IMG/VR virus record: IMGVR_UViG_3300028024_000105
Coordinates: 32,811 to 96,810 of that record
Direction: 5' to 3' (one strand)
Source of the DNA: a virus
DNA length: 64,000 bases
Shown: one piece after another, positions 1,315 through 62,012 of the stretch
Position numbering within the stretch: the stretch's first letter is position 1
Layout of the letters: each line of letters begins with the position of its first letter
The notes under the pieces: model-generated
Told to the model about the DNA's origin: nothing
Database searches by the model: none
The model's input: the letters and a program-made list of their open reading frames with translations, nothing else
Position numbers and translations under genes: made by a program

Positions 1315-1868
1315 AGACCCCGCTCCGATCCTTTCTCCGTCCGGACGCCTACGCGCCGTTCTTCAGCTTCGGACGCCGGATAGCATCGCCCGAAGCCTTC
1401 TTCCATGGTCTCAAGTTCCGGCACGGATCGCCATTGCAGAGCGCGGTCATGATGGAGCGCGAGTTGGCGCAGTACCGTGGCCGCCCGTTCGCTCGCCGGA
1501 CCTATATCTTCGCGGGCTTCCACTTCGGCGTCGACACCCTAGAGCACTATCTCCTGCTCAAGACCGTGATGCGCAGCAAGTTGACCCAGCACAAGCAAGA
1601 GCTGCTGTGGTTGATGGACGACACGGTCCTGGAGGACTACGGCCGCCTAGGCGGCTGGCACGGAGACGGCTTCGGAGGTCCCGAGTACGCTCGGATCATC
1701 CGCGAGCTGCGACAGGAGTTCCAGTGCCGTCTCGAGGAGACCGGCTCCATCAACTTCACATCCGCCAGCGAATTCAGCGCCATGACGAACAGGCAGTTCT
1801 TGTTCGGCGACACCCACGGCGTGCGTCCGCACCACAAGAGGCGAGCCCATGAGTCAGTTCAAGGTTGA
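1311..1868 (+). CDS. Hypothetical protein
   Basis: A 185-residue protein starting at a GTG that overlaps the previous stop (GTGA). It is rich in aromatic and histidine residues, including HFGVDTLEHY near residue 70. There is no signal peptide and no family was recognised. Its last 20 bases overlap the start of the RNA ligase gene, so both probably belong to one transcript with the ligase. Function unknown. Confidence 0.7.
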   Translation: MKTPLRSFLRPDAYAPFFSFGRRIASPEAFFHGLKFRHGSPLQSAVMMERELAQYRGRPFARRTYIFAGFHFGVDTLEHYLLLKTVMRSKLTQHKQELLWLMDDTVLEDYGRLGGWHGDGFGGPEYARIIRELRQEFQCRLEETGSINFTSASEFSAMTNRQFLFGDTHGVRPHHKRRAHESVQG

Positions 1869-2862
1869 GATCGTCCGCGTCGGCAAGATCGGCAAGCACC
1901 CCAACGCCGACACTCTGTCGGTCACGCACGTGTTCGATTTCCCCGTGGTGTTCCGGACCGGAGACTTCATCGAAGGCCAGAAGGCTGTCTACGTGCCCGT
2001 GGACTCGCTCGTGCCCACTGATCGGCCGGAGTTCGAATTCCTGAAGGAAGAAGGCAAGACGCACGCGCGGATCAAGGCCAAGAAGCTGCGCGGCATCTTC
2101 TCGATGGGCATGATCGTCCCGATCTGCGTTGCGACGTTCGGCGAGCGTTGCGCGGAGCTGGGTGACAACGTCGCCGAGCTGCTGGGCGTCACCAAGTACG
2201 AACCCGAAGTCCCGATGCACTGGGGCGGCCAGAACGAGCGCGACCCCGGCTTCATCCCGGTCTACACCGACATCGACCATTACCGCCGGTATCCCGACAT
2301 CCTGCAACCCGGAGAAAACGTCATCGTGACGGAGAAGCTGCACGGCGCCAACGCCCGCTTCACCTTCCACGAGGGACGGCTGTGGGTCGGCTCGCACAAC
2401 TGCATCAAGCGAGACGCGCCCGAAAGCATGTGGTGGAACATGGCCCGGAAGTACCAGCTCGCCGAGCGACTGGCCAAGTTCCCCGGCCATGTCTTCTACG
2501 GCGAGGTCTACGGCCACGTGCAGGACCTGAAGTACGGCTCGAAGGGGCCTGTCGACACCTGGTTGCGGTTCTTCGACGTCTTCAAGTGGAGCACCGGCAG
2601 CTACGCCGACCAAGACGAGACGGCCAACATCATCCTGGGGCTGGGCCTGAACATGGTGCCGCTGCTCTACGTCGGCGGCTGGCAGCCCGAGTTCATCCTC
2701 CCTCTGGCCGACGGATCGACGACGCTCGGAGGCCAGTGCATTCGTGAAGGCATCGTGATCAAGCCCGCCAAAGAGCGGCGAGACGACCGGCTCGGCCGCG
2801 TCATCCTGAAGCACGTCAGCGAAGGATACCTCACGCGGAAATCCGGAACCGAATACCACTAG
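1849..2862 (+). CDS. RNA ligase, DraRnl (Rnl5)-like
   Basis: A 337-residue nucleotidyltransferase-type ligase. Motif I is EKLHGA with the predicted AMP-accepting lysine K163. Motif IV is REGIVIKP (about 299-306) and motif V is ILKHVS with K321. About 130 residues precede the catalytic domain, starting with VEIVRVGKIGKHPNAD, which resembles the N-terminal OB fold of the Deinococcus-type RNA ligase family. Such enzymes seal 3'-OH/5'-phosphate RNA nicks and are common phage repair tools against host RNA cleavage, for example of tRNA. All key residues are intact. Confidence in the family is high; the natural substrate is unknown. Confidence 0.9.
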   Translation: MSQFKVEIVRVGKIGKHPNADTLSVTHVFDFPVVFRTGDFIEGQKAVYVPVDSLVPTDRPEFEFLKEEGKTHARIKAKKLRGIFSMGMIVPICVATFGERCAELGDNVAELLGVTKYEPEVPMHWGGQNERDPGFIPVYTDIDHYRRYPDILQPGENVIVTEKLHGANARFTFHEGRLWVGSHNCIKRDAPESMWWNMARKYQLAERLAKFPGHVFYGEVYGHVQDLKYGSKGPVDTWLRFFDVFKWSTGSYADQDETANIILGLGLNMVPLLYVGGWQPEFILPLADGSTTLGGQCIREGIVIKPAKERRDDRLGRVILKHVSEGYLTRKSGTEYH

Positions 2863-22073: not shown

Positions 22074-22288
22074 GACGGATACCTCCGGCCGCCTTCGACA
22101 TCATCCGGTGCCCGTCTTGCGGCTGCATGGTCGACTTCACGTTCGCCCTGCGCCCGTGCGCGGACTGCGACAAGAAGCTCTGCCACAACTGTGCGTATCG
22201 GACCAACGACATCGCGGATAAGTCCCGCTGCAAGAAATGCTTCCGTAAACGAATTGCGGTAACGAATCCCGTTAAGCGTCGTCCTTGA
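22070..22288 (+). CDS. Double zinc-finger protein
   Basis: A 72-residue protein with CPSCGC, CADCDKKLCHNC and CRCKKC-like knuckles, giving two zinc sites in a RING/FYVE-like arrangement, and a basic tail. GTG start overlapping the previous stop. The end of the gene contains the upstream half (GTAAC) of the box C for the lipoprotein-integrase operon. Confidence 0.55.
   Translation: MRRIPPAAFDIIRCPSCGCMVDFTFALRPCADCDKKLCHNCAYRTNDIADKSRCKKCFRKRIAVTNPVKRRP
22259..22287 (+). promoter_or_regulatory. Box C promoter-like element
   Basis: GTAAC (22259-22263), 16 bases, CGTCCTTG (22280-22287). The last three bases are the first of the inverted repeat at 22285, so binding there would block the promoter. 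Confidence 0.6.
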
Positions 22289-22326
22289 CACCATCTAAGG
22301 GAGGGGGCATTCTTAGGTAGTGTCAA
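22285..22326. repeat. 15-bp imperfect inverted repeat, operator or attachment-site candidate
   Basis: TTGACACCATCTAAG (22285-22299) and CTTAGGTAGTGTCAA (22312-22326) match at 13 of 15 positions when inverted, with a 12-base centre rich in G. It lies between promoter and lipoprotein start, 374 bases before the integrase. Confidence 0.65.
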
Positions 22327-22340
22327 AGAGGGTCACAGCC

Positions 22341-22700
22341 ATGAAGCGTGCTCTGTTGATTCTGTGCCTGGCCGGATGCGTGCCCCAGCCCGCCGAGCTG
22401 CCGCAGGAAGCTCCCACGATCCGCGCGTCTCACCCCGAGTGGAGCGCGAAGGTCTGCGAGGCTGTCGAGCGCGGCCTGATGTGGGAGGGGATGAACATCG
22501 ACCAGTTCCAGTGCTCGGCCCTGTACGGACAGGGCAACGCTCTGGTCTATCCCGACGGCCCCCATCACCATCGGGCCGCCGACACCGCGAGCGAATCCAA
22601 GAACGGCTACATGCTTAGGTACGAGAAGTCGTACGTCTGGATCACCGGCTTCTTCGACAAGGGCGGCATGATGGTCGACTACCGGAAGACGGCTCGCTGA
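22341..22700 (+). CDS. Lipoprotein
   Basis: A 119-residue protein with a compact lipoprotein signal: KR, hydrophobic ALLILCLAGC, with Cys13 as the lipidated residue. The mature part has two further cysteines and a beta-rich end (MLRYEKSYVWITGFF). It immediately precedes, and overlaps, integrase 1. In temperate phages such lipoproteins often act in superinfection exclusion; that is inferred from context only. Confidence 0.75.
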   Translation: MKRALLILCLAGCVPQPAELPQEAPTIRASHPEWSAKVCEAVERGLMWEGMNIDQFQCSALYGQGNALVYPDGPHHHRAADTASESKNGYMLRYEKSYVWITGFFDKGGMMVDYRKTAR

Positions 22701-23791
22701 TGGGCTACGTCTACCGGCGCGTCTGGCCGAGTGGCAAGGTCCGTTTCATCATCGCCTACACCGACGTCGACGGCCGCACCAAGCGCCGAGTGACGAAGGC
22801 CGAGTCGAAGCTGGTGGCCAAGCGTCTGCTGTCGGCCGCCGAGAACGACGTCGAGCGCGCGAAGCTGCAGGGCATGCAGTCCCGAGACACCATCGTGACC
22901 CGGCCCGAGGTCGTGACGTTCCGCGCCGCAACGGCCGAGTACGTGAAGCACCACGCGTCTAAGCTGAAGGCGAGCACCAAGGACTCGTACGAGCTGATCC
23001 TGGAGAAGCACCTTCTGCCCTCGTTCGGCTCCAGCGCGCTCCGCGACATCACCATCCGCGACGTCGAGAGGTACATGACGGCGCGCCTGGGCGCCGACAA
23101 CGGGGACGGTGGGAAGATCCAGCCCGCCACCGTCCGCAACGAAGTCCACTGCCTGTCGAGCGTGTTCCGGTACGCCGTCCGCTCGGCCATGGTCCAGCAC
23201 AATCCCGTCCGAGATTCCCAGAAGCCGAGGACCGAGCAGAAGATCCTGCGCTTCCTGGACCCGGCCGAGGAGAAGGAGATCCTCTCGCGCGCGTACTCGC
23301 CCCTGCGCGAGGCCATCGTGACCGCCATCCACTCCGGCATGCGCGAGGGGGAACAGGCCGCGCTGCTCTGGTCTGACGTCCGCATGGACGAACGCAAGAT
23401 CATCGTCCGGCACACCAAGAACGGCCGGGACCGGGCCATCGACATGAGCGACACGCTGTACGAGACGCTCAAGAGCCTGATCCGGTACACCGACTGCCCG
23501 TACGTCTTCGTGAACCCGCGCGCGCACGAGCGGTACGAGCGGTTCAACAACACGGCCTGGAGGAAGGTCTTGCGGGACGCCGACGTGAAGAGCCTGCGCT
23601 GGCACGATCTTCGGCACACGTTCTGCTCGCGGCTCGCGCAGCGCGGCGTCCACCCCAAGACGATCATGGAGCTGTCCGGCCACAGCAGCCTGAGCCAAGT
23701 GGAGCGGTATGCCCACATGACGCCGGACCATCGGGCGGCGGCCGTCAAGGTCCTGGACCAGAAGCCCAAGAGGAAGGCCAAGGCGCAGTGA
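22700..23791 (+). CDS. Tyrosine recombinase (integrase 1)
   Basis: A 363-residue phage integrase with all parts: N-terminal arm-binding region (about 1-65), SAM-like core-binding domain (about 75-165) and catalytic domain with R215, H302 and R305 (WHDLRH), H328 (SGHSS) and nucleophile Y337 (VERYAHM). All five key positions are present, so it should be active for site-specific integration or excision. It lies in a lipoprotein-integrase operon under a box C promoter with an overlapping inverted repeat. Confidence 0.93.
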   Translation: MGYVYRRVWPSGKVRFIIAYTDVDGRTKRRVTKAESKLVAKRLLSAAENDVERAKLQGMQSRDTIVTRPEVVTFRAATAEYVKHHASKLKASTKDSYELILEKHLLPSFGSSALRDITIRDVERYMTARLGADNGDGGKIQPATVRNEVHCLSSVFRYAVRSAMVQHNPVRDSQKPRTEQKILRFLDPAEEKEILSRAYSPLREAIVTAIHSGMREGEQAALLWSDVRMDERKIIVRHTKNGRDRAIDMSDTLYETLKSLIRYTDCPYVFVNPRAHERYERFNNTAWRKVLRDADVKSLRWHDLRHTFCSRLAQRGVHPKTIMELSGHSSLSQVERYAHMTPDHRAAAVKVLDQKPKRKAKAQ

Positions 23792-23982
23792 TGGACCGAG
23801 TCGACACCTGGCTTGTGCTTCTCGTGGGCCTGCTGCTCTTCGAGATCCTAGCGGTCCCACCCAACGATCAATCATGGAACTCGGATCGCGTCATCATCGG
23901 GATTGTCATCCTGGGGATGACCATGCTCTGCGCGCTGATGCGGTGGTGGGCGTGGCGCGAAAGAAAGCGCAGGGTACCATGA
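23791..23982 (+). CDS. Small membrane protein
   Basis: A 63-residue protein with two transmembrane segments (about 8-23 and 37-54) and a basic C-terminus. The ATG shares a base with the integrase stop. Could be a membrane-directed lysogeny or exclusion protein or, less likely, a holin. Function unknown. Confidence 0.6.
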   Translation: MDRVDTWLVLLVGLLLFEILAVPPNDQSWNSDRVIIGIVILGMTMLCALMRWWAWRERKRRVP

Positions 23983-24125
23983 AGAGGCTGAAGAATCGGA
24001 CCTGTCCCTACCACTGCAGGTTCTGCGGTGCCCGGCTACGCCGGGACACGAACGGCCACTATTGCCCATCCCGCAACTGCCAGTGGTCTCTGAACGGCTC
24101 CGGCTGTCCGTGCACGTGCACCTAA
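23979..24125 (+). CDS. Tiny zinc-ribbon protein
   Basis: A 48-residue protein with CPYHCRFC, CPSRNC and a CPCTC tail; enough Cys/His for one or two zinc sites. ATGA overlap with the previous gene. Part of the large set of short zinc proteins. Confidence 0.5.
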   Translation: MKRLKNRTCPYHCRFCGARLRRDTNGHYCPSRNCQWSLNGSGCPCTCT

Positions 24126-24135
24126 GATCCCGTCT

Positions 24136-24149
24136 CGGTCCAAGAGGAC
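24136..24149 (+). promoter_or_regulatory. Box B promoter-like element
   Basis: CGGTCCAAGAGGAC then ATG (24150), TCCAAG 5 nt from the start. Confidence 0.7.
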
Positions 24150-24566
24150 ATGAGCGGTCACATCCTTGGCGACATCTCTTCCCAGAAACTCCCCGAGCGA
24201 TTCAGCGCGAGCTACTTCTTCGAGCGCGACTGTTGGATCGACTGCCGGGTTCCTGAGATGATCACCATCGACCCCACGGCCGAGATCGGCTGGGAGGTCA
24301 AGATGGTCTGCATGTCGCACGACATCAACCCCGGTATGTTCGGCCGCCTGGTCGGACGCCCCATCAAGATCGGCGCAAAAGCCTTCATCGCGGGGTTCGC
24401 GCTGTTGTACAATTGCGAGATCGGCGAAGGTGCCGTCGTCGCCGTGGGCTCGGTGGTGAGAAGCCAGAAGGTCGAGCCCTGGACGGTTGTGGCCGGGAAT
24501 CCGGCCGTGCCCGTGAAGCGCTACGACTGGGGCCTGAAGAAGTGGGTCCCGATCCCGCCCCCGTAG
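24150..24566 (+). CDS. Left-handed beta-helix acyltransferase
   Basis: A 138-residue protein with hexapeptide repeats of the NodL/WbbJ/maltose-acetyltransferase type: IDPTAEIGWEV, PIKIGAKAFIAGFALLYNCEIGEGAVVAVGSVV, then VVAGNPAVPVKR. These enzymes transfer acetyl or acyl groups from CoA to sugars and similar acceptors. The N-terminal maturation domain is missing, so it is short for the family. The box B start suggests late expression, perhaps to modify surface sugars. Its last 10 bases are also the 5' end of the tRNA gene. Confidence 0.8.
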   Translation: MSGHILGDISSQKLPERFSASYFFERDCWIDCRVPEMITIDPTAEIGWEVKMVCMSHDINPGMFGRLVGRPIKIGAKAFIAGFALLYNCEIGEGAVVAVGSVVRSQKVEPWTVVAGNPAVPVKRYDWGLKKWVPIPPP

Positions 24567-24633
24567 GTCAATTGGATAGACCATCCGGTTTCTACCCGGA
24601 TAGTTGCAGGTTCGAGTCCTGCCGGGGGTACCA
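24557..24633 (+). tRNA. tRNA-Arg (anticodon UCU)
   Basis: A full cloverleaf: acceptor GCCCCCG/CGGGGGT (one G-U pair), D stem GGTC/GACC, anticodon stem TCCGG/CCGGA with loop TTTCTAC, variable loop TAGTT, T arm GCAGG-TTCGAGT-CCTGC, discriminator A and an encoded CCA. Anticodon TCT reads AGA, a codon rare in high-GC hosts. The upstream gene's stop codon TAG is bases 8-10 of the tRNA. Confidence 0.95.
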
Positions 24634-25182
24634 TCAGCTCCTGGGCAGGACCTTCCAATGTGAGAACGGCGGCAGCTCCGCGTCGTCCGGCACGATCACA
24701 CCGTAGGCCGCGACCGGCCGGGGCATCGAGTAGTCCGGCACGATCACTCGGCCGTAATGCTGCAGCTCGGCGGGCTTCGTGAGGTTCTGCCCCAGCGACC
24801 CGGGCATGTCGAGGTTGTTCACGAACACGATGGCTTCGGGCCAGCGCTGCTTGACGATCTCCATCTGCTGGTGGAGCAGACGATCCGCCACCCACACGGT
24901 ATCCATGTAGAACATCGAGGGGCGCGGAGGGTCGATCCTGCGCAGCCACTCCACGGCGTTGGCGGTCTCGAGATGGATGCGCGGGTACCTCTGCTGTCCG
25001 ATCTTCACCGCCTGGTCGTTCAGATCGCAGCCCAAGCCGAAGCTGTCTGGCACGAACTGTGAGAAGTAGCCGACCGTCTCGCCTTCGAGGACGCCGCACT
25101 CGACCCAGCTCTTGATGCCGAACCGGCCGATCAGCCAACCGGCGAGGCACATGCGATGGAAATTTTCTTGATGCGTGGCCAT
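24634..25182 (-). CDS. SAM-dependent methyltransferase-like protein
   Basis: A 182-residue protein. WVECGVLEGETVGYFS (about 25-40) and GCDLND (acidic SAM ribose ligand) match class I methyltransferases with the glycine loop partly altered. FYMDTVWVADRL and IVFVNNLDMPGS follow in the order of FkbM/macrocin-O-methyltransferase-like proteins. ATG 25182 has GAAGG 6 bases upstream. It ends directly against the CCA end of the tRNA and follows a radical SAM gene in one operon. Confidence 0.6.
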   Translation of the reverse strand: MATHQENFHRMCLAGWLIGRFGIKSWVECGVLEGETVGYFSQFVPDSFGLGCDLNDQAVKIGQQRYPRIHLETANAVEWLRRIDPPRPSMFYMDTVWVADRLLHQQMEIVKQRWPEAIVFVNNLDMPGSLGQNLTKPAELQHYGRVIVPDYSMPRPVAAYGVIVPDDAELPPFSHWKVLPRS

Positions 25183-25190
25183 TTTTGCCT

Positions 25191-26081
25191 TCAACTGTAG
25201 GATGGGAGCTTGCACAGATCCTTGCACATCTGGTTCAGGTCACCGGCAAGGTGGCGCCGCCGAGCGGCCCGGTACTTCTCTCCGTTCCAGACTTCGGCCA
25301 GCGTGTTCTCGTGGATGTTGCCCATGACCATCGCCGCGTTGTAGTCGTAGCAGCACGTGACGACGTCTCCGTTGGGGTTGACGTACACGGTCTCCCAGAA
25401 CTCGCGACATCCCAGCTTGTCGGCCTTCAGGACCGGCGTGCCTTCCGCATCGAAAGAGTAGCGGTGGTAGCTCTTGTTCTTCGGCAGCATCTCTCGCTGG
25501 GCCCGCTCGTCGACCAAGTACGGAGGCTTGAAGCCGATGCGGATGCCGAGGGAGTCGGCCATCGCCTGGGCAGCAGGCATCTGGTGTTCGTTGTGGGCGA
25601 AGACGATGAAGGTCCAGATCGTCTTCTTGGGCGCGAGCTTGGCCAGCAACCGCAGGCCGTTCATCGCCTTCTCGATGTCGCCGCGCACCCGGTACTTCTC
25701 GTAGGTGGCCTGATCCATGCCGTCGATGGAGACCGCGATGTCGTCGCAGAGCGCGATGTCCTGGGCCAGCTCTTCGGTCACGAACATGCCGTGCGTAGTG
25801 AACTGCACGGCCGAGAACTCCTTCACCTTCCGGATGATCTGCCCGATCTCCTTGTGGAGCGTCGGCTCGCCCCAGTTGTGGACGTAGGTGTAGCGCACCG
25901 AGTCCTTGGCTTCGCGGCAGACCTTGTCGACCAGATCCATCGGCATGAAGGGGACCTTGGTGGTCTTGGCGCGCGTGACCTGGCCCGCGCCCGTGCGGCA
26001 CGAGGGGCAGCGCAGGTTGCAGACGGACACGGTCTCCAGCACGAGCTGGCGCGGGGCCGGGGCGACTTCCGAGTATTCCAT
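25191..26081 (-). CDS. Radical SAM protein with SPASM-like C-terminus
   Basis: A 296-residue enzyme. CNLRCPSC (about 22-29) is the CxxxCxxC motif binding the SAM-cleaving 4Fe-4S cluster; NWGEP is the GGEP-like SAM site; SIDGMDQATYEKYR is typical of the barrel. The C-terminal CREFW, NGDVVTCCYDY and final CKDLC can bind an auxiliary cluster, as in SPASM/twitch proteins acting on peptides or sugars. The start is fixed by a minus-strand box B. With the following methyltransferase it may modify a peptide, sugar or base late in infection; the substrate is unknown. Confidence 0.85.
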   Translation of the reverse strand: MEYSEVAPAPRQLVLETVSVCNLRCPSCRTGAGQVTRAKTTKVPFMPMDLVDKVCREAKDSVRYTYVHNWGEPTLHKEIGQIIRKVKEFSAVQFTTHGMFVTEELAQDIALCDDIAVSIDGMDQATYEKYRVRGDIEKAMNGLRLLAKLAPKKTIWTFIVFAHNEHQMPAAQAMADSLGIRIGFKPPYLVDERAQREMLPKNKSYHRYSFDAEGTPVLKADKLGCREFWETVYVNPNGDVVTCCYDYNAAMVMGNIHENTLAEVWNGEKYRAARRRHLAGDLNQMCKDLCKLPSYS

Positions 26082-47916: not shown

Positions 47917-48714
47917 ATGGGAAAGCTCTACGCCTGCCTCAACGTTTATCAGGAAGAGCACCTTCTCCCTGACTGCCTGCGCTCCGTTCGCGAGAACCTC
48001 CCCGAAGCCGAGATCATCCTGATCGACGGCGCCTACGAATCCTGGATTCTGCAGGTCAAGGTTCAGGCCGCCATGGAGTACGCCGAGGGCCACGTCGAGC
48101 TGGCCGAGAGCATGCTCCGGTTCGTCTCCCCGATCTCGACCGACGCCACCATCCAGATCGCCAAGGACTTCAAGGTCGAGCACATCGTGATGCCGCAGAC
48201 GCAGTGCATGTGCGGCGGGAAGAAGACGCCGACCGGCTACTACGAGAAGGGCGCCTACCTGCCCTGGCCGTCGGAATGGCAGAAGCGCGCCCGCTTCTTC
48301 GACTTCGGACGGAACGGGGACTACTACTTCATCGTCGACGCCGACGAGCGGCTGCGTGGCAAGCCCGCGCCCCTGGTCGCCGACCACTACGCCGTGGTCC
48401 TGAAGCGCGACGACGACATCAGCCCCTACCCGGTGCACCGCGTCTTCAAGCACCGGCCCGGGATCAAGATGGAAGGCGCTCACATGGCGGTCTGGGCCAA
48501 CGAGCTGGTGCAGGACCCGGCGACCAAGGCCGACGTGATCAAGCCGGTCCTGATGCGGAAGGACGAGGCACCGATCCTGCAGGGCTGCCACTTCGACCAT
48601 CTCTTCGTCGGCCGCTACAAAGCCGATCAGGTCCGGACCCAAGCCAAGGGGGCGTACTACCGCAGGGGTCTGTCCAAGGAAGAGGAGAAGTTCCGCGCGG
48701 AACACGACATCTAA
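47917..48714 (+). CDS. Family 2-like glycosyltransferase
   Basis: A 265-residue protein. GT-A fold signs: LYACLNVYQEEHLLPDCLRSV at the N-terminus, AEIILIDGAYESW, and DYYFIVDADERL (about 137-148) with the metal-binding DxD-type DADE. A Cys-containing loop MPQTQCMCGGKK (about 90-101) is unusual. It sits between the capsid terminator and the connector genes, an odd place for an enzyme. It may glycosylate virion proteins, DNA or the host surface. Confidence 0.78.
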   Translation: MGKLYACLNVYQEEHLLPDCLRSVRENLPEAEIILIDGAYESWILQVKVQAAMEYAEGHVELAESMLRFVSPISTDATIQIAKDFKVEHIVMPQTQCMCGGKKTPTGYYEKGAYLPWPSEWQKRARFFDFGRNGDYYFIVDADERLRGKPAPLVADHYAVVLKRDDDISPYPVHRVFKHRPGIKMEGAHMAVWANELVQDPATKADVIKPVLMRKDEAPILQGCHFDHLFVGRYKADQVRTQAKGAYYRRGLSKEEEKFRAEHDI

Positions 48715-51209: not shown

Positions 51210-52190
51210 ATGGCGCAGAACGTCGGCCTTGGAATGCGGAGCTTCATCGGATTCGGCAAAGAATCCACGTGGGGCGTCCCCGTCACCCGCACCAACTTCA
51301 TCGAACTGATCTCGGAGAGCATTTCCAAGCAGGTCGGCCGGATCGAGTCCAACAGCATCCTCCGGCGCGGCGTTCGCAACACCCACGTGATCGCCGGGCA
51401 GATCGACGTCGCGGGCGACCTGGTCTTCGACGCCACCTACGGCGGCTGGCTCAAGCTGGCCGAGCAGGCGTTCGGCACCAAGGTCACGTCCCAGCCGGAC
51501 ATCACCAACGCGCCGTCGGCCTACCAGCACGTGTTCACCATCGCCGACACTCCTCCGGCCGGTCTGACGGTCGAGGTCTTCCGCGACTCCTCGCAGTTCG
51601 TCACGGAGCCCAACAAGAGCTTCGTCTATCGTGGCATGAAGGTCTCCAGCCTGGAGCTTTCGTGCGGCACGGACGAAATCCTGCGCGTCGCGTGCAACAT
51701 GATCGGCACCGACGAGACGCGCCAGTCCAAGTCGAGCGAGTCCTACTCCTCGAGTCGCGTGGCGGTCTACCATCAGGGCGTCGTGAAGTGGAACACGACC
51801 GACATCGAGGTCGGCCAGTTCTCCATCCGGATCGACAACGGCCTGGGCGCGCGGCCCAAGCTGGGGAGCCAGTACAGCCGCGAGCCGGTGCCCGAGAACA
51901 AGCTGGCCGTCACCGGGTCGTTCGAGATGGAGTTCGCGTCGTGGGAGCAGTACGACGACTTCTCGAACACGACCGAGCGGCAGTTCGAGGTCGAGTTCCT
52001 GGGCTCGCTGCTGGGCGGCACGATCTACGAGCAGATCAAGCTCGTGTGCCCGGTCTCCCTGCTCGACAACGTCCGCGTGCTCCTCGACAAGCCCGGCCGC
52101 GTCATGATCGGCGCCGACTTCAAGGCGTACCGGACCGACGTGGCCAACGAGGTCACGATGACCGTGCGCAACGCGGAATCCAGCGTGTAA
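51210..52190 (+). CDS. Major tail tube protein
   Basis: A 326-residue protein with the layout of long siphovirus tube proteins: RSFIGFGKESTWGVPVTRTNFIELISESISKQVGRIESNSILRRG, IAGQIDVAGDLVFDATYGGWLKLAEQAFG, then beta-rich repeats FVYRGMKVSSLELSCG and AVTGSFEMEFASWEQYDD. Its own box B and downstream terminator fit strong expression. Confidence 0.82.
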   Translation: MAQNVGLGMRSFIGFGKESTWGVPVTRTNFIELISESISKQVGRIESNSILRRGVRNTHVIAGQIDVAGDLVFDATYGGWLKLAEQAFGTKVTSQPDITNAPSAYQHVFTIADTPPAGLTVEVFRDSSQFVTEPNKSFVYRGMKVSSLELSCGTDEILRVACNMIGTDETRQSKSSESYSSSRVAVYHQGVVKWNTTDIEVGQFSIRIDNGLGARPKLGSQYSREPVPENKLAVTGSFEMEFASWEQYDDFSNTTERQFEVEFLGSLLGGTIYEQIKLVCPVSLLDNVRVLLDKPGRVMIGADFKAYRTDVANEVTMTVRNAESSV

Positions 52191-52895: not shown

Positions 52896-55325
52896 ATGCA
52901 GACGGGCAGTGGCGAGACGACCCTGACGGCGGTCCTTCGACTGCGCGACGAGATGTCGCCGCAGCTCGAGAAATCCAAGTCCGCCCTGGCCGGGATGCCC
53001 GTCGGCTTCGACATCCTCAAGAAGGCTGCCACCAAGGCGATGGCCATCATCACCGGCAGCCTGATCCTCATGACCAAGTCGGTCATGAGCACCGCCGACG
53101 AACTCGACAAGATGAACCGCCAGACCGGCGTGTCCGTCGAGACGCTCCAGAAGCTGGCGTTCGTCGCCGCCGAGTCGGGCGCAAGCCTGCAGGACATCGG
53201 ATCGGGCATGAAGTTCCTGGGTCGCAGTCTCGCTGCAGCGAAGAACGGCGGGCAGGAAGCCATCGAAGCATTCCGCCTTCTCGGCGTCGGCATCGAAGAA
53301 CTGAAGGCGCCGGGCATGACCACCGAGAAGCTGTTCATGCGCATCGCCGACTCGATGCAGTTCCTGAGCGACGAGCAGCGGCAGGAAGTCTTCAAGGTCA
53401 TGGGCAGGGGCGCGGCTGATTTGATCCCGCTCCTGTCTCAGGGCTCCGCAGCCATCACGGCCCTGGGCGACGCCGCCAAGGAGACCGGCGCCATCATGTC
53501 CGGCGAGGCCGTGAAGGCGCTCGACTCCTTCGGCGACCAGCTCACTGGCATGGGGATGGCCCTGAAGGGCATGTGGGGCGAGCTGCTCGCATCGCAGACC
53601 GTCTCCCTGCCGAAGATCATCGAGGGCTTCGGCGTCTTCATGGTCGCCATCAGCGACGTGAAGGGCAAGTTCGTGCTGGCGTTCAAGACCGTCCAGAACG
53701 CGCTGACCTTCGCGGCGGTCGTCATCAAAGCCACCTTCAACGCCATCGTCGACACCATCCAGATTTCGATGGCCAAGGCGGTCGACGCAATTCGTACGCC
53801 GCTCATGCTCCTCGCGCGCGGGCTCAACAAGGCCGGTCTCATGGCCGACGAGACGCTCGCCAAGATGCAGGTGGCGTTCGACGGCTTCGGGGCTGTCGCG
53901 CAGAAGAGCCTGAAAGATCCGTTCGCCAACCTGGGCGTCACGATCAAGCAGGAATACGCCGTCGCCATGCAGGCGCAGGGCGAGTTCGTCGACGAGATGA
54001 AGGCCGACTACAAGGCCGCCGTCGACTCCGTGGACATCTTCACCGGCCGCCTGAAACAGGCCGCAGCCCTGCAGACCGACATGGGCCGCGACAAGGCCGT
54101 CAAGCAGGCCAAGACCAAGAGCGACCCTCTCGACGAAATCCTCGCCATGGCCAAGGCGTTGAACATCGTCACCACCGAGCAGAAGAAGCTCAACCAGATG
54201 GCGGACGACTTCGCCAAGAAGAGCGGCATCCGGCTGAACGCCGAGCAGATGAAGATGCTCGCGGACGCGGCGGCCAAGGGCGACGCCGCCGTCCAGCAGC
54301 TCTTCGAGGACATCACCAAGGCGACTGAGGCGGACCCGCTCAAGGGCATGCAGCTCGCGCTGTGGGACCTGACCCAGCGCACCTACAGCTTCCGCGACGC
54401 CTGGGGCAAAATCTTCGAGGATCTGCGCTCGGGCTTCAGCGAGACCTTCGCCAACGCCATCGACGGAACCGAGAAGTTCGGCGACGGCTTCAAGAAGGTC
54501 ATGAAGGACCTGAAGCGGAACCTGATCAAGATGTTCACCGACTTCGCCACCAACCAGCTCTTCGGAGCGGCGGGCGGTCTGTTCGGGAGCGTCTTCGGCG
54601 CGTCCAGCCCTGCCGCCCCCGGGACGGGTGTGGGGCAGCCGGGCACGACTCCGGGCATGAGCGGTATGGGCGGGCAGATCGGCGGCCTGGCCAGCGGCAT
54701 CGGCAGCGCGCTCGGCATGAGCGGAGGCACGTTCGGGGCCGTCGCCGGACTCGGCGCGGCAGGCGCCGCGCTCACCGTGTCGGGCGTCTCGAACGGGAAC
54801 GTCACGCAGGGGACCATGGGGGGAGCCCTAGCGGGCATGGCCACAGGCGCGGTCATTGGATCGGTGATTCCCGGCATCGGCACAGTTATTGGTGGGGTTG
54901 TTGGTGCCATCGTTGGCGGCCTTGCTGGATTCCTGGGCAGCTCCGCGAAGAAGAAAAAGAAGGCGCGCGAAGCGGCGCGGAAAGCGGCAGCAGCGCTGGC
55001 GGCCTACAACGAGGCTCTGTCCAAAGCCCGGGTCGTCCTGAAGGGCGACATTCGGAACAAGCTGGGCGGCGGTCTCGCGACCGAAGAGGCGGCGGCGGAC
55101 ATCGGACATCTTTTCAGCGAGGATCTCAGTGCGGACGAGATCATGAAGTTCGGAGACCCGGCCGCCATCGCAGCCAAGGAAGCCGCCGTCGATCGGCAGA
55201 ACAACATCAATGCCCCGATCACGGTGAATGCCACCATCACGGGATCGTATGACGCGCAGAGACTTGCCGAAGACCTGTCATACCACCTGCAGAATCAGAT
55301 GGGCGGCGCGGCGGGCGGTCTATAA
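52896..55325 (+). CDS. Tail tape measure protein
   Basis: An 809-residue protein. The conserved TMP core ADELDKMNRQTGVSVETLQKLAFVAAESGASLQDIGSGMKFLG is at about 70-110, hydrophobic segments at 255-300 and 590-700 (Gly/Ala-rich AGMATGAVIGSVIPGIGTVIGGVVGAIVGGLAG), coiled coils between them. Using about 0.15 nm per residue, the tail would be near 120 nm. The C-terminus includes AITVNATITGSYDAQRLAEDL-like region usual in TMPs. Confidence 0.9.
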   Translation: MQTGSGETTLTAVLRLRDEMSPQLEKSKSALAGMPVGFDILKKAATKAMAIITGSLILMTKSVMSTADELDKMNRQTGVSVETLQKLAFVAAESGASLQDIGSGMKFLGRSLAAAKNGGQEAIEAFRLLGVGIEELKAPGMTTEKLFMRIADSMQFLSDEQRQEVFKVMGRGAADLIPLLSQGSAAITALGDAAKETGAIMSGEAVKALDSFGDQLTGMGMALKGMWGELLASQTVSLPKIIEGFGVFMVAISDVKGKFVLAFKTVQNALTFAAVVIKATFNAIVDTIQISMAKAVDAIRTPLMLLARGLNKAGLMADETLAKMQVAFDGFGAVAQKSLKDPFANLGVTIKQEYAVAMQAQGEFVDEMKADYKAAVDSVDIFTGRLKQAAALQTDMGRDKAVKQAKTKSDPLDEILAMAKALNIVTTEQKKLNQMADDFAKKSGIRLNAEQMKMLADAAAKGDAAVQQLFEDITKATEADPLKGMQLALWDLTQRTYSFRDAWGKIFEDLRSGFSETFANAIDGTEKFGDGFKKVMKDLKRNLIKMFTDFATNQLFGAAGGLFGSVFGASSPAAPGTGVGQPGTTPGMSGMGGQIGGLASGIGSALGMSGGTFGAVAGLGAAGAALTVSGVSNGNVTQGTMGGALAGMATGAVIGSVIPGIGTVIGGVVGAIVGGLAGFLGSSAKKKKKAREAARKAAAALAAYNEALSKARVVLKGDIRNKLGGGLATEEAAADIGHLFSEDLSADEIMKFGDPAAIAAKEAAVDRQNNINAPITVNATITGSYDAQRLAEDLSYHLQNQMGGAAGGL

Positions 55326-55352: not shown

Positions 55353-56204
55353 ATGCGCCAGCATAGGCTCCCACCAAGTCCCCTACCTGAAAACTGGCAA
55401 CACTTTAGTGCTTCCAAGAAGCACAGACTAAGTGTATTGGCCGCAGGTCTCTGCGGCTCCTGCTACAAGAATCCATTCGTAGCTGGTAAAACAAAGTGTC
55501 AACCATGCCTAGACAAACAAAAAGGTGAGCACAAACTATTACTTGAAAGTAGTGTTTGCACCACATGTAAAGAGCCATGGAACGGACCGCAGAATAAGTG
55601 CGACCCTTGTCGAAAGGAAATATCAATTCAAGGCCATCTGGCTCGACGCAAGAATGCCAAAAGGAAATCCTGCCTTAGTTGCGGCGCACCAAGAGATTGT
55701 GAAGGACGCATATGTGCTAAGTGCTTGAACGACTCGAACGACAGAAGGCGGGCAATTCGTGAACGCCGGAAGATCGACGGGTGTTGCGCAGATTGTGATC
55801 GAAAGAGCGTTGGAAACAGCGGCTTCTGCCGCTACCACTTCTTTTATTTCTACGCCGCTAAACTCGGCGATGTCACGAAGGCAGACGACCTAGAGCAGAT
55901 GTGGGAACATCAGGCTGGTAAATGTGAAATCTGTCCTCACCGCATGATTCTGGCAGTCGACATAAATCTTTGCCATTATAAAGATCGTGATCGGTATCCC
56001 GAATTGGCCAATGATCTTACGAATCTCTTTTGGGGTCATGCCTATTGCAACCGAAGTCAAAGTAACAAAACTCTTCCTGAATACTTTCAGCACTGCATCG
56101 AGGTCGTCGAAACAGCTCGCCTGAGAGGTCATTTAGATTCGTCGGGATTGGTCCAAGAGTCTGTATGGCCACTCCCTACATCGCATTTGACGGTGTCCAG
56201 CTAG
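55353..56204 (+). CDS. HNH-like homing nuclease with zinc knuckles
   Basis: A 283-residue protein, markedly AT-rich. Multiple CxxC knuckles (CGSC, CQPC, CTTC, CDPC, CLSC, CAKC, CADC) precede a C-terminal HNH-like part CEICPHRMILAVDINLCHYKDRDR and HAYCNRSQSNK. The first catalytic His region is degenerate compared with the 31128 protein, so activity is uncertain. It is inserted between tape measure and Dit with its own box A, and its last 40 bases overlap the Dit gene and its box B. Confidence 0.72.
   Translation: MRQHRLPPSPLPENWQHFSASKKHRLSVLAAGLCGSCYKNPFVAGKTKCQPCLDKQKGEHKLLLESSVCTTCKEPWNGPQNKCDPCRKEISIQGHLARRKNAKRKSCLSCGAPRDCEGRICAKCLNDSNDRRRAIRERRKIDGCCADCDRKSVGNSGFCRYHFFYFYAAKLGDVTKADDLEQMWEHQAGKCEICPHRMILAVDINLCHYKDRDRYPELANDLTNLFWGHAYCNRSQSNKTLPEYFQHCIEVVETARLRGHLDSSGLVQESVWPLPTSHLTVSS
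56149..56163 (+). promoter_or_regulatory. Box B promoter-like element
   Basis: TGGTCCAAGAGTCTG then TATG (56165), with GATTCGTCGG upstream; it lies inside the end of the HNH gene. Confidence 0.65.
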
Positions 56205-56941
56205 ACGATTACTTCGCCACCTGGCAGGAGCAGGCGAACTCCCGCATCAACGCGGTGACCGTGCCCCGGCGCCACGGCGCGCTGATCACGGACTCCGTGG
56301 TCGAGGACCCCCGCATCATCGGCGTGACCGGCCGGATGCAGAACGACGATCCGGAGGACCTGCGCGACATCATCGACCAGTTGTCCGAACTGTTCCAGCG
56401 CCGCAACAAGCGGCTCCAGCTCTGGAGTGACCGCTTCATCACGGCCTACAAGTCTCAGTTCGGGTTCGCCTACGTTCCCGGCTCCGGCATGCGTGCCGCA
56501 GACTTCAGCCTGCAGTTCTTCTGTCCCGATCCGTTCTGGTACGACACAACCCCCGACGCCGTCGACTTCGACCTGGCGCAGACGGATCTCGCGCTCGACA
56601 TCACGAACAACAAGTACCGGCGCGAGATCACGGTCACGAACGACGGAGACGTCTACGTCTACCCGACCATCACGGTCACGCCCGGCGGGACGCCGCTGAC
56701 CACCATCGTGGCACGCAACATCACGTCGGGTCGTATGTTCACCTATCTCGGCACCGTCGCGGTGGGCACGGCGCTCGTGGTCAACATGGCCGCCTTCACG
56801 GTGGAGAACAACGGCATCGAGGACCTGCAGAACTTCTCCAACAGCGACTTCTGGGCTCTCCAGCCCGGCGACAATGTGATCCAGATCGAGGGGACGGCGC
56901 CCGCCAACTACGACTTCGCCTTCACGAAGCGGTTCCCGTAA
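56165..56941 (+). CDS. Distal tail protein (Dit-like)
   Basis: A 258-residue protein following the tape measure. IAFDGVQLDDYFATWQEQANSRINAVTVPRRHGALITDSVVEDPRIIGVTGRM is the Dit N-terminal ring domain, with LSELFQRRNKRLQLWSDRFITAY and DFSLQFFCPDPFWYD. The C-terminal beta-sandwich (about 140-258) matches the usual second domain. It forms the hub at the tail tip. Confidence 0.82.
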   Translation: MATPYIAFDGVQLDDYFATWQEQANSRINAVTVPRRHGALITDSVVEDPRIIGVTGRMQNDDPEDLRDIIDQLSELFQRRNKRLQLWSDRFITAYKSQFGFAYVPGSGMRAADFSLQFFCPDPFWYDTTPDAVDFDLAQTDLALDITNNKYRREITVTNDGDVYVYPTITVTPGGTPLTTIVARNITSGRMFTYLGTVAVGTALVVNMAAFTVENNGIEDLQNFSNSDFWALQPGDNVIQIEGTAPANYDFAFTKRFP

Positions 56942-57615
56942 TGATCCGGCAGGAGCTGGATTTTCCCAAGGGGCTCATTCCCGCACGCCCACGCCTGCGC
57001 GGGCAGGCGCGCATGATGGTCGTCGACCGCAAGACCGGCGCCCGGCAGCACCGCAGCATCCTGGAGCTGCCCGAGTTCCTCCTGGGAGACGAGGTCTGGG
57101 CCAACCGTTCGCTGGCCGAGGGGTTCGATCCGGAGCTGCAACCGGTCTATGCTTCCGCACCCGGTTCCCACGCCAGCCCTACCGCCGGGCTTCCGATCCC
57201 GCGCGAGCTGGTCGACCGGCTCAACGTTCGCACGCTGACTCTGCACATCGGCAGTCCAAGAGAGCAGGACGACATTCTCAAGGGATACCAGACCGGTCTG
57301 GGTTGGCGGGAGTGGTACCAAATCCCCCAAGCCCCGGCCGGTCGAATTGCAGCCATCGGGACGACGGTGGTGAAAGCCTTCGAGACCTGGGCGCGGACCG
57401 GAGAGCTGACCGGCTGGAGCCGACTCTTCATCCAGCCCCCGTTCGAGTTCAAAGTGATCGGGAAGATGTTGACGAACTGGCACTTCCCGGGCGAGCCGCT
57501 GCTCGCGCTGACCTGTGCATTCGGTGGTGTTGATGTGATTCGTGAGGCGTACGAGGCGGCCGTCGCGGAAGGATACCTCTTCTCCGACTACGGCGACCGG
57601 CTCCTGATCATCTAA
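56941..57615 (+). CDS. Shortened QueA-like protein (SAM:tRNA ribosyltransferase-isomerase family)
   Basis: A 224-residue protein with QueA signatures in order: LIPARP and VVDRKTGARQHR (about 12-38), VYASAPGSHASPTAGL (69-84), LTLHIG (99-104), IAAIGTTVV (136-144), LFIQPPFEFKVIGKMLTNWHFP (162-183), TCAFGGVDVIREAY and SDYGDRLLI. QueA (about 340-350 residues) adds epoxy-cyclopentane-diol from SAM to preQ1 in tRNA. Here the middle domain of about 100 residues is missing while both flanks are kept. It is embedded in the tail operon (ATG shared with Dit stop, stop shared with the next gene's start), so it may be re-purposed. Confidence 0.82.
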   Translation: MIRQELDFPKGLIPARPRLRGQARMMVVDRKTGARQHRSILELPEFLLGDEVWANRSLAEGFDPELQPVYASAPGSHASPTAGLPIPRELVDRLNVRTLTLHIGSPREQDDILKGYQTGLGWREWYQIPQAPAGRIAAIGTTVVKAFETWARTGELTGWSRLFIQPPFEFKVIGKMLTNWHFPGEPLLALTCAFGGVDVIREAYEAAVAEGYLFSDYGDRLLII

Positions 57616-60600
57616 TGAGTTGCGTTGGAAGCGCCCCGACCTTCTCGGACATCTCGTCCTGGACACTGTCGCATGACGGCTCCGGATGCGAGAACACCGC
57701 CACCATCCACGTCGACGCCCCTTGCGGCTCCAGCCTCTACACCATCAAGCTGACCCGCACCCAGAACGCCGTCGACACGGACGTGTACTCGGCCACCATC
57801 CCCGACGGCCCGCTCTCCGCATACCAGTTCCAGTACATCGACACCCCGCCCTGCGGCCGGGGCACGATCACCTACCATTGGACCATTCTGTGCGACGGCG
57901 CGGTCCAGAGCACGAGCTACACCAAGTCCGCCGATCAGGGTGGCCCACCCACGCTGTCGCCCGACACGATGGCGCACGACGGCGGCACCTGCGAGAACAC
58001 GCTCCAGCTTCGCGTCATCATGCCCTGCGGCGAGTGCGGCGGGACGGTCAAGCTGTATCGCACTCAGGGCAGCGAACCGACGATGACGGCGGGTGAGGTC
58101 ATCTACTCGAACACCGTCCCCGACGGTCCGTCCGACACGACCTACAACTACGCCGAGACGCCGCCCTGCATTCGCGGCACGTACTACTACCGGTGGCAGG
58201 TCGTCCTGCCCGCCGGAACCTACAACGGCGGACTGCATCAGGCTGACTCCGGCGGCCCGGCGGTCATCACCTTCCACGATGCGCAGGTCGACGCCGACTG
58301 CAACATCACGGCACGGATGCAGCTCTCGAAGCCCTGCGGCGAGTGCGCGGGCACCTGGAAGCTGTTCCGGAAGCTGAACTCGGCCAGCAGCTTCGACGCC
58401 AGCGAGGAGATCGCGAGCGGTGAAGTCCCGGCCGGGCCGCTGATCGGCTTCACCGTCACGCATACGGAGCACCCGGGCAACGGCCACTGGTACTACGCTT
58501 GGCGCGTCTACAACGACACGGGCGGTATCGACGACGAGTTCAGCAGCGACCTGGCCACCACCGAGTGCATCCCGTTCTACACCCCGACGCCCATCTCCCT
58601 GCCAGAGGATGCGTTCGAAAAGCAGATCGTCCTCGTTCAGGTCACCGGCACCCCCGGGGGCGGACTGGTGTACACCGACAGGAAGATCATGAATCTGGCC
58701 GAGCAGCGGCTGGAGTGGTGGTACCACAAGAACGGTGGGTGCGCCGGGTTCCGCCTGCTCACCCATGAGCTTCTCGACGACGAGTTCTTCGACGACACGC
58801 TCGACGAGTCGTGGGAGATCCACGTCCGTATCAAGCTCGGCGGCGAGGACACCTACACGACCTGGTATCGGGGCGTCATCCGATCCATCAAACATCAGGA
58901 GCAGGGCGTCGACGAGTACGCCGACATTCACGGCTACGGCTACGTCGAGATGCTCAACAACATTCAGGTGCAGCGGATCTACCGGGCCGGGCTCACGGTC
59001 AAGCAGGTAGTCGACGATATCATCGCCCAAGACGTCCGGCCGTATACCCGCATCGTCCGGCCGAACGATCTGGACCCCACCAACGGCGACAGCGGCGTGG
59101 TGGCATCCAACTACATCCTCAAGTCCGACGTGCACTTCGAGTGCTCGGCTCTCCGGGCCATCAAGTTTCTGGCAGAGATTCAGGGCAACCGCGAGTACGG
59201 CGTGGATGCGCAGCGCCGCTTCTACTTCCGCCTGAACTCCAGCACCGTCGGCGCCAACTTCTTCCTGGCCAAGGACGTCGTCGACCGCGTGGCAGGCGGC
59301 AAGTCGTTCGGGCAGACCAACAGCCTGAAGGTGGCTGGCAAGTCGTTCGGTGCTCGCGACTTCCTCAAGATCCGAGAAGACGTCACGGACGTGACCAGCT
59401 TCGGCCGCCGTGAGACCCCCGTCGAAGTCCCCTGGGTGACCGGAGACGGTGACGCGTCCGCGTGGGCCGACAACATCATCGCGGTCAACAAGACCAAGCA
59501 GGACTGGGCGGTCATCACCAAGAAGACCGTCACGTCCCGGCTGGAGAACTCCCACCCGCTCCCGCGCGTCACCGTCTACGGCGGTGACGTGTCGAACGAC
59601 GTCAAGACCTACGACATCGCCAAGATCCAGTACATCGAAGGCGGCACCCGGGCACCGCAGGAGATCCGTGAGAAAGGTGTCCCCAAGCAGCAGATGGACA
59701 CGGACCAGCCCCTGAAGGCGATGTACTATCTGGGCCGATACCCCAACGACCTGATCGACGAGCTGAAGGAGCGCGTCTACGACCAGATCGACGCGCTCAA
59801 GGGCCGCCACAAGCAGTTCCGCTATCCGAACGACATCACCAACGAGCTGATCAACATCTCGGGCAAGATCCCGGGCGAGATCAAGTTCTACCACAAGGTT
59901 CCGGACGTCACGAACATCGACGTCACCAACAGCCCCACCGACCTGTCCGACCCCACCAACCCGCGCGGTGTGCTGGTGGCCTGGATCGGAGGCCAATGGG
60001 TGCAACTCTCTCCCCGCCGCATCTTCCACACTCTGAGCGGCGTGCGCGGACAGTTCATCGGCGAGATCGTCTCGCTGATCACGGACACCACCAACTTCCA
60101 GATCGGAGCAATCTACTGGTGGACCGGCGCATCCTGGTCCCCCGTCGGTTCCGGCTCGGGCGCGGGCAACATCATGGAGGGCGCCCGCGTCCAGAAGACG
60201 TCGAACACCACGATCTCGCCCGGCGGGACGACGCTCTCGTACGACTTCGTGATCGCCAACGACAACGCCGTCTTCTCCTCCGGCACGCCCACGCTCCTGA
60301 CGGCCAAGACGACCGGCTACTACAACATCTCGGCCGACGTGCTCTGGGGCAAGGGACTGAACGGCACCTATCGGGAGATCCGCATCAAACTGACGTCCGG
60401 CGTGAACGTCAAGATCGTCGCGAAGGACCGCAAGGATGACTTCGTCCACAATGTGAAGCGGACCAACCACGTCGAGACCACGCTGCTCATGCTCGCGGGC
60501 GACTACATCGAGCTGATCGCCGACACGGACGCTCTGGACGGTGGCAACGTCGTCGAGTATTCGGAAGAGGTCTCGCCGGTCTTCTCCATGGCGCTCGTGT

Positions 60601-62012
60601 CCGGCGGCGGCATCACGAGCAGCTCCATCGGCACGCCGAGTGGCCCGGCGGGTGGCGACCTGGCAGGCTCCTACCCTGACCCGATCTGCAATAGCAACAT
60701 CGCCCGGACGTCTCAGATCATCGACGTGACGGCCCCGCTCTTCGAGCGTGACGGACACAACACGCTGGCCTACGACCTGTACTTCGACATCACCAACTTC
60801 CGGGGCTCCGGGGCCAACGCCAAGCGTGGCGTGGTTCCCTCGCCCGGAACTCCTGCCCGCATCGGACGCTTCCTTTGTGAAGACGTCACGAACCCATGGC
60901 AGTATCCCACGGCCATCCCGATTGGGTTCTTCGGCGACGGATCGGACGGGGATCTCGACATCTCCGGCAGCGGCGACACCACTCTGTCGTCTGGAGACAG
61001 TTTCAAGAACTACCGCAACGTCAATCTGGGCGCGAACACGCTGTACGTCCACGCCGACGACTTCGCCGCCATGATCTGCATCAGCGGGACGCTGACTTCC
61101 AACGGCGGACGCATCGCGCTCCTGCATCGCAACGGCACGGCTGGAGGCAACGGCCTGTTCGGCGGCGGCAACGGCGGGGCAGGCGGCGGCGACTCCGGCA
61201 TCCTGGTTGTTCGGGCGAAGTACCGCGCGGGGGCCATCACGCTGTTCGCGGCGGGGGCGGCGGGCGGCAACGGCACAAACGCTTCGGCGCGCTCGGGTAA
61301 CGGCGGCGGCGGGAGCGGCTTGCCCGGCGTCATCTCGCAGGCGCGAGTCAAAGGCTACGCCATCACGGTCGTGTCCGCCAAGATCCACGCCGTCAGCCCG
61401 GCAACGAATGGCGGCGACGGCGGCGTCGGAATGACCGCCGCGCAGAAGCGGGTCTTCAAGGATGTGGCTTCCTGGCTGCTCGGAGAGTCCGGTTTCCCGA
61501 CCTTCGCCAGTAGCGACCGCAGCATCTACTGGACCGAAACGGTCTCGGCAGCCTCTGGCGACGGGGGCGGTGGGGACCTGGCAGGCAAGGACGGCATGCC
61601 CGGCGCCGGAGGCGGCGGATGGTTCGTCAACGGCGGGCGGGGCGGTCATGCAGGAGTAGTCGGCACGGGTGGCAACGACGCACAGGGCGGTCCGGGCGGT
61701 GGCGGTGGCTCGGGAGGCGTTGTGGTGTTCGTATCCCTGTCGGATGGCAGTGGCGTCACTATCGACGTGCGCGGAGGCAACGGTGGATCGGCCGGGAACG
61801 CGTCCGGCGGCGGCTGTGGAGGTTCGGGTGGCGGCGGCGGGGGCTCGGGCGGACGGTCCTATTCGATCACTCGCGGCGTGACAGTTCCGACGCATATGGT
61901 GACCGGCGGCACGCCCGGCGCTCCTGGCCTTCCTGCGGGCGACGGCGGCGCAGCGGCTGCAGCAATTGCGGGCACCGATGGTATTGCAAGCAGCCTTCTA
62001 ATGAACGAGTAA
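57615..62012 (+). CDS. Large tail-tip protein with Ig-like repeats and Gly-rich end
   Basis: A 1465-residue protein. Three N-terminal Cys-paired beta domains (each with CENT or CNIT, PCG..CG and a PxG motif) at about 15-110, 115-205 and 215-310. Then a baseplate hub-like region (about 330-720, KQIVLVQVTGTPGGGLVYTDRKIMNLAEQRLEW, GYGYVEMLNNIQVQRIY). From about 860 come fibre-like domains, and a Gly-rich segment at about 1350-1440 resembling collagen-like or polyglycine adhesin tips. Probably the tail-associated hub/receptor-binding protein. Long antisense frames on the other strand are a composition effect. Confidence 0.72.
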   Translation: MSCVGSAPTFSDISSWTLSHDGSGCENTATIHVDAPCGSSLYTIKLTRTQNAVDTDVYSATIPDGPLSAYQFQYIDTPPCGRGTITYHWTILCDGAVQSTSYTKSADQGGPPTLSPDTMAHDGGTCENTLQLRVIMPCGECGGTVKLYRTQGSEPTMTAGEVIYSNTVPDGPSDTTYNYAETPPCIRGTYYYRWQVVLPAGTYNGGLHQADSGGPAVITFHDAQVDADCNITARMQLSKPCGECAGTWKLFRKLNSASSFDASEEIASGEVPAGPLIGFTVTHTEHPGNGHWYYAWRVYNDTGGIDDEFSSDLATTECIPFYTPTPISLPEDAFEKQIVLVQVTGTPGGGLVYTDRKIMNLAEQRLEWWYHKNGGCAGFRLLTHELLDDEFFDDTLDESWEIHVRIKLGGEDTYTTWYRGVIRSIKHQEQGVDEYADIHGYGYVEMLNNIQVQRIYRAGLTVKQVVDDIIAQDVRPYTRIVRPNDLDPTNGDSGVVASNYILKSDVHFECSALRAIKFLAEIQGNREYGVDAQRRFYFRLNSSTVGANFFLAKDVVDRVAGGKSFGQTNSLKVAGKSFGARDFLKIREDVTDVTSFGRRETPVEVPWVTGDGDASAWADNIIAVNKTKQDWAVITKKTVTSRLENSHPLPRVTVYGGDVSNDVKTYDIAKIQYIEGGTRAPQEIREKGVPKQQMDTDQPLKAMYYLGRYPNDLIDELKERVYDQIDALKGRHKQFRYPNDITNELINISGKIPGEIKFYHKVPDVTNIDVTNSPTDLSDPTNPRGVLVAWIGGQWVQLSPRRIFHTLSGVRGQFIGEIVSLITDTTNFQIGAIYWWTGASWSPVGSGSGAGNIMEGARVQKTSNTTISPGGTTLSYDFVIANDNAVFSSGTPTLLTAKTTGYYNISADVLWGKGLNGTYREIRIKLTSGVNVKIVAKDRKDDFVHNVKRTNHVETTLLMLAGDYIELIADTDALDGGNVVEYSEEVSPVFSMALVSGGGITSSSIGTPSGPAGGDLAGSYPDPICNSNIARTSQIIDVTAPLFERDGHNTLAYDLYFDITNFRGSGANAKRGVVPSPGTPARIGRFLCEDVTNPWQYPTAIPIGFFGDGSDGDLDISGSGDTTLSSGDSFKNYRNVNLGANTLYVHADDFAAMICISGTLTSNGGRIALLHRNGTAGGNGLFGGGNGGAGGGDSGILVVRAKYRAGAITLFAAGAAGGNGTNASARSGNGGGGSGLPGVISQARVKGYAITVVSAKIHAVSPATNGGDGGVGMTAAQKRVFKDVASWLLGESGFPTFASSDRSIYWTETVSAASGDGGGGDLAGKDGMPGAGGGGWFVNGGRGGHAGVVGTGGNDAQGGPGGGGGSGGVVVFVSLSDGSGVTIDVRGGNGGSAGNASGGGCGGSGGGGGGSGGRSYSITRGVTVPTHMVTGGTPGAPGLPAGDGGAAAAAIAGTDGIASSLLMNE

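Follow-up and report, generated by a model that had tools for sequence, protein, structure and literature searches.

QueA, the tRNA preQ1(34) SAM ribosyltransferase-isomerase (PF02547; PDB entries 1vky, 1wdi and 1yy3), comprises an alpha/beta core with an inserted beta-barrel and carries a series of near-invariant motifs (GTFxPV, HxMHxE, AGLHF, GTTxxR, TNFHLPxST, NDTxVxPAR and PLPPY). There is no QueA structure with bound substrate, and how the enzyme binds SAM and tRNA is considered unsettled (PMC10491745); the barrel is regarded as unlikely to contact or bind SAM (PMC1282579). According to published surveys, none of the viruses analysed encodes QueA (PMC6884629; restated in PMC8265664). A queuosine-pathway family has been reused in a phage-related setting: QueC-family proteins of type IV CBASS and qatABCD defence systems are repurposed to act on protein (PMC12424860), although the enzyme family is a different one, the genes belong to bacterial defence and not to a phage, and the case serves here as an analogy only. 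Among QueA relatives, a 359-residue paralogue on a Salmonella IncHI2 plasmid (L215:2620-3699) resembles the protein described below in that its GTF and HMH loops are altered, E, GTT and TNxHxP are kept, and its score lies under the QueA cut-off (221 versus 324 bits). By contrast, it has a barrel-length insert and lies beside a RidA-family gene; it was not placed in our tree.

Here we describe a QueA-derived gene in the tail block of an uncultured phage. The window, that is, the whole stretch of 64,000 nucleotides analysed, corresponds to positions 32811-96810 of a 96,810-base IMG/VR record (G000).

Genomic context

The gene (56941-57615, plus strand; 224 residues) lies in a block of tail genes on the same strand. 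Upstream are genes for the tail tube protein (51210-52190; Pfam Phage_tube_2, 2.3e-31), the tape measure protein (52896-55325; matches to PHROG tape measure families) and the distal tail protein Dit (56165-56941; PHROG 33, 2.4e-36; Pfam SPP1_Dit, 1.9e-10, and Sipho_tail). Downstream follows a large gene of 1465 residues (57615-62012), which matches no Pfam family and is labelled a putative tail tip from its position only. The ATG at 56941 shares one base with the Dit stop codon (TAATG), and the stop codon at 57613-57615 shares one base with the ATG of the 1465-residue gene (again TAATG). A gene caller had placed the start further downstream, at the ATG at 57013; position 56941 is preferred because the N-terminus is conserved in the copy found in a related phage, G001. 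The reading frame, its ends and its coupling to virion genes are therefore as the sequence-only reading had given them, the tail-tip label being positional.

Between the tape measure and Dit genes lies an open reading frame of 283 residues (55353-56204) with zinc-finger-like CxxC pairs and no Pfam match. This stretch is AT-rich (GC 0.46-0.51 versus 0.62-0.72 around it) and is missing from G001, in which the stop codon of the tape measure gene abuts the start of Dit (L002:7228); it is possibly a homing-endonuclease insert. A glycosyltransferase-2-like gene (47917-48714; Pfam 5.7e-4, below cut-off) lies between the major capsid and tail genes, and its G001 counterpart, at the corresponding position, is 62% identical; further glycosyltransferase and sugar-nucleotide genes are found within L003:400-14826. 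The record also encodes, outside the window, a DNA polymerase III alpha protein with a C-terminal uracil-DNA-glycosylase domain (L004:2172-5798, record 22172-25798; Pfam UDG, 2.1e-24), which is 68% identical in G001. Neither a Thg1-like tRNA-His guanylyltransferase (L003:17838-18500) nor a probable RNA ligase (window 1849-2862; reported in the NCBIfam and Pfam scans, member not named) has a match in G001, and a radical SAM protein with a SPASM domain (window 25191-26081, minus strand) has none among the G001 matches listed.

Fold and loss of the barrel domain

Membership of the QueA superfamily is clear: the window protein matches PF02547 (Queuosine_synth) at 4.7e-40 and 138 bits, against a gathering cut-off of 25 bits, and the PDB QueA sequences 1wdi, 1vky and 1yy3 at 3e-28 to 4e-21, with about 30-40% identity to QueA over the C-terminal part. 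Structure prediction, which had been suggested as a check on the QueA-like identity, agrees with this assignment. An AlphaFold2 model (pLDDT 79, pTM 0.82), built from an alignment of the viral pair and 22 QueAs and hence not independent of QueA, retrieved the same three entries with Foldseek (E 5e-14 to 5e-12, TMq 0.68-0.72), and these were the only PDB matches at E ≤ 0.001. Searching the viral protein models of BFVD with this model returned no similar fold at the same threshold. A single-sequence model of the G001 copy was unusable (pLDDT 33).

What is preserved is the alpha/beta core. Residues 1-52 correspond to the N-terminal portion of the alpha/beta domain of QueA and residues 67-224 to its C-terminal portion, whereas residues 53-66 form a linker at the former barrel position; model confidence is low at residues 61-81, around the linker of some 20 residues that replaces the barrel. 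The middle domain of about 100 residues that had been noted as missing is thus the inserted beta-barrel, of about 90-100 residues, which is absent from both the window protein and the G001 copy. Nor was it found elsewhere: no second PF02547 locus was detected in G000 and G001. As the barrel is rated unlikely to bind SAM, its loss alone leaves SAM binding possible.

QueA motifs and the queuosine pathway

The sequence-only reading also held that all flanking QueA motifs were present, and this does not stand. GTFxPV, HxMH and the histidine of AGLHF are lost, the arginine of GTTxxR is replaced by lysine, the ST after TNFHLP reads EP in the window pair, and NDTxVxPAR and PLPPY disappeared together with the barrel, so that most of the near-invariant motifs are changed or deleted. 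Kept are R20, N55, P80/A82/G83, LH, GTT, E148, TNxHxP and GD, as well as E124 in one alignment; PTAG, TLH, GTT..E, TNxHxP and GD are motifs shared with QueA. Relative to 22 full-length QueAs, both viral copies keep 34 of the 77 near-invariant columns that are present in the viral proteins. Extending the comparison to a more distant viral relative (G402, below) and to 57 scorable columns that are near-invariant across 58 QueAs, all three viral proteins keep 26, including the polar residues R20, N55, H102, T141, T142, E148, T178, N179, H181 and D219. A further 14 columns are altered in all three proteins, four of them to the same residue.

The scores mirror these changes. Against equivalog cut-offs of 324 bits (NF001140) and 267 bits (TIGR00113), the window protein reaches 122 and 99 bits, the G001 copy 117 and 95, and the G402 protein 188 and 154. 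Searches of G000 and G001 revealed no TGT (PF01702), QueC (PF06508), QueD (PF01242) or QueF (PF14489), and no TGT was seen in G402; 52 other proteins of the window record, compared with NCBIfam and Pfam, gave no queuosine family in either listing of 25 families. The earlier impression that no other queuosine gene accompanies this one therefore holds for these four families in the two related phages. The hallmark of a DpdA system, TGT/DpdA together with the preQ0 genes QueC and QueD in the phage, was likewise not found in G000 and G001, although PF01702 may miss a divergent DpdA.

Viral relatives

All three virus records with such a protein come from uncultured viruses: two related phages and an unrelated one. 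The first relative, G001 (IMGVR_UViG_3300046514_000858, 93.7 kb), has an equally barrel-less copy, 67% identical, in the same slot, sharing one base with each neighbour (TGATG in both cases); the absence of homologues in the same position, which had been named as grounds for doubt, is thus not what is observed. G000 and G001 have much of their gene content in common (roughly 30-73% protein identity), so both may owe the slot to a shared ancestor.

The second, G402 (IMGVR_UViG_3300031576_000109, 44 kb), was found by a scan of IMG/VR with a planctomycete QueA added to the alignment. Its record contains terminase, portal and major head protein genes (PHROG), and its QueA-like protein of 322 residues retains the barrel, is 44% identical to the window protein over 175 aligned core residues, and lacks many of the motifs that the window protein lacks, despite having the barrel. 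Besides the QueA-like gene, BLASTP between this record and the window phage gave weak matches of integrase type and a weak one of portal type (E 2.5e-4), and no further shared protein. Here the gene is ATGA-coupled to an upstream gene without assigned function and lies outside the Dit slot, at the end of the late block, between a tail-fibre-like gene and holin/lipoprotein-like (lysis-like) genes; these labels were made from the sequence, with no match in the families scanned.

Beyond G001, no other barrel-less QueA was found among 59 QueA-encoding IMG/VR loci, the rest being either full length or truncated at the end of a contig. A motif-pattern search of IMG/VR returned G001 as its sole match, and the peptides NWHFPGE or GWS[RD]LFIQ gave no relative among the matches in GTDB contigs. 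Several candidate leads were set aside. The queA matches in INPHARED look like host DNA, and in the record examined queA stands among bacterial genes: the contig deposited in GenBank as Acinetobacter phage MD-2021a (CAKLQH020000002.1; L067) contains queA and tgt along with other genes of bacteria and resembles host chromosome. The family phrog_28663 matches ordinary QueA-bearing genomes, and a glycine-rich tail protein, considered as a common partner, is lacking in G001.

Probable bacterial origin

In 392 Planctomycetota genomes, four full-length QueAs from one class (L216, L217, L218 and L219) match the viral proteins better than other QueAs do. L216 and L217 are 44-47% identical to the viral core and share with the viral proteins a compact loop, IPEPP-G, before GTT, as well as wording of the ETWARTG/PPFEFK type. 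In a maximum-likelihood tree of 61 rows, from which barrel and linker positions were omitted, all three viral proteins fall into one clade (support 100/99.7) that groups with the four planctomycete proteins (99/99.7); in an earlier tree from which this class had been left out, the viral pair stood on a very long stem. The deep donor search covered Planctomycetota, and a closer donor elsewhere is possible. No tail-tube match indicative of a provirus was obtained in the 392 genomes, a result that carries little weight as it had no positive control.

Unlike the viral proteins, these planctomycete QueAs are full-length proteins of cellular genomes with the barrel and the QueA motifs, and L216, L217 and L219 pass the NF001140 cut-off with 387-449 bits. 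At the level of sequence, a QueA lineage of intact appearance adjoins viral proteins that no longer qualify as QueA. The likeliest history is that a bacterial queA was captured and its QueA-specific motifs eroded, the barrel then being lost in the window lineage.

Selection

A crude Nei-Gojobori comparison of the window gene with its G001 counterpart gave a dN/dS of 0.24, the lowest of six late genes (0.37-0.63 for the other five); because dS is close to 1 and codon bias is strong, these values are rough, and the ranking alone is useful. Together with the 67% identity, this appears to indicate purifying selection. The window pair is identical at 44 of 52 bacteria-invariant columns but at only 47 of 88 variable ones, which points to the ancestral core as the constrained part. 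This pattern would fit a retained ligand site with an altered substrate, but also a retained fold.

Discussion

We consider, with moderate confidence, that a captured bacterial queA has been turned into a different late protein: a QueA-derived enzyme or ligand-binding protein with an altered substrate, not one of queuosine synthesis. Several lines of evidence favour this repurposed enzyme: the 26 near-invariant columns, polar ones included, that all three viral proteins keep; the same-slot copy in G001, the relative in the unrelated G402 and the single viral clade; the grouping of planctomycete QueAs, with the same loop and wording, with this clade; the lowest dN/dS, together with the better preservation of bacteria-invariant columns; and the published view that the barrel is unlikely to contact SAM (PMC1282579). 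In such a scenario, phages would have acquired a queA akin to the genes of one Planctomycetota class, its QueA-specific motifs would have been replaced while the remainder of the alpha/beta core stayed, and the barrel would have been deleted in the window lineage. The gene would then have become fixed in place, with Dit before it and the large tail gene after it, and would be expressed by translational coupling, such that production would coincide with that of the virion proteins. The retained core may still bind SAM or a related ligand, and could carry out chemistry based on SAM, not on preQ1-tRNA but on another substrate, for example a virion or envelope component. Two points count against this. 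The possibly catalytic GTFxPV, HxMH, H85, R145 and S185 are gone, which could fit loss of catalysis too, and conservation at ancestral columns may reflect the fold and not ligand binding.

The main rival is a structural exaptation, in which the QueA core, without catalysis, would be a tail part, bound in the virion with Dit on one side and the tail tip on the other. We regard this as somewhat unlikely. Such a part would suit the slot that the gene occupies in two phages, flanked by Dit and the large tail gene and sharing a start or stop codon base with each of them; the disappearance of the barrel and of many QueA motifs would agree with it, as would the signs of purifying selection. However, the G402 relative has the barrel and lies outside this slot, which is therefore not general and disfavours an obligate tail part, and all three viral proteins keep a number of polar residues that are invariant in QueA. 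Association with the tail as such is favoured by the Dit slot and the barrel loss in G000 and G001. A more specific proposal is a viral QueA-derived family made with virion proteins, perhaps on or in the tail, that would perform SAM chemistry, the QueA reaction in whole or in part, on a protein or other non-tRNA substrate and off nucleic acid; as worded, we find it doubtful. Identification as a SAM-destroying anti-restriction factor would be speculation.

Among the roles first envisaged (modification of tRNA, phage nucleic acid or a protein, or a structural part), action on tRNA as QueA is unlikely, given motifs that are not intact and scores of 122, 117 and 188 bits against a cut-off of 324 that the nearest bacterial relatives pass. 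A true QueA, made late and completing epoxyqueuosine in host tRNA with host TGT and preQ1, is thus very improbable: PF02547 is matched well over its cut-off, the predicted fold matches QueA and the host could provide the remaining pathway, but both equivalog cut-offs are missed by a wide margin, the barrel and GTFxPV/HxMH are lost, and the pathway partners sought in the two related phages were not detected. A functionless captured host gene, retained by chance in the tail block, would account for the shortening and the lost motifs but is scarcely credible for a frame that is open in both related phages at 67% identity, with the lowest dN/dS of the six late genes and its start and stop overlaps kept.

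These genes illustrate how a tRNA-modifying enzyme has found its way into the late gene blocks of phages of two or more lineages. The barrel-less core, under apparent selection, also offers a natural minimal construct for the roles of the two QueA domains and for SAM binding.
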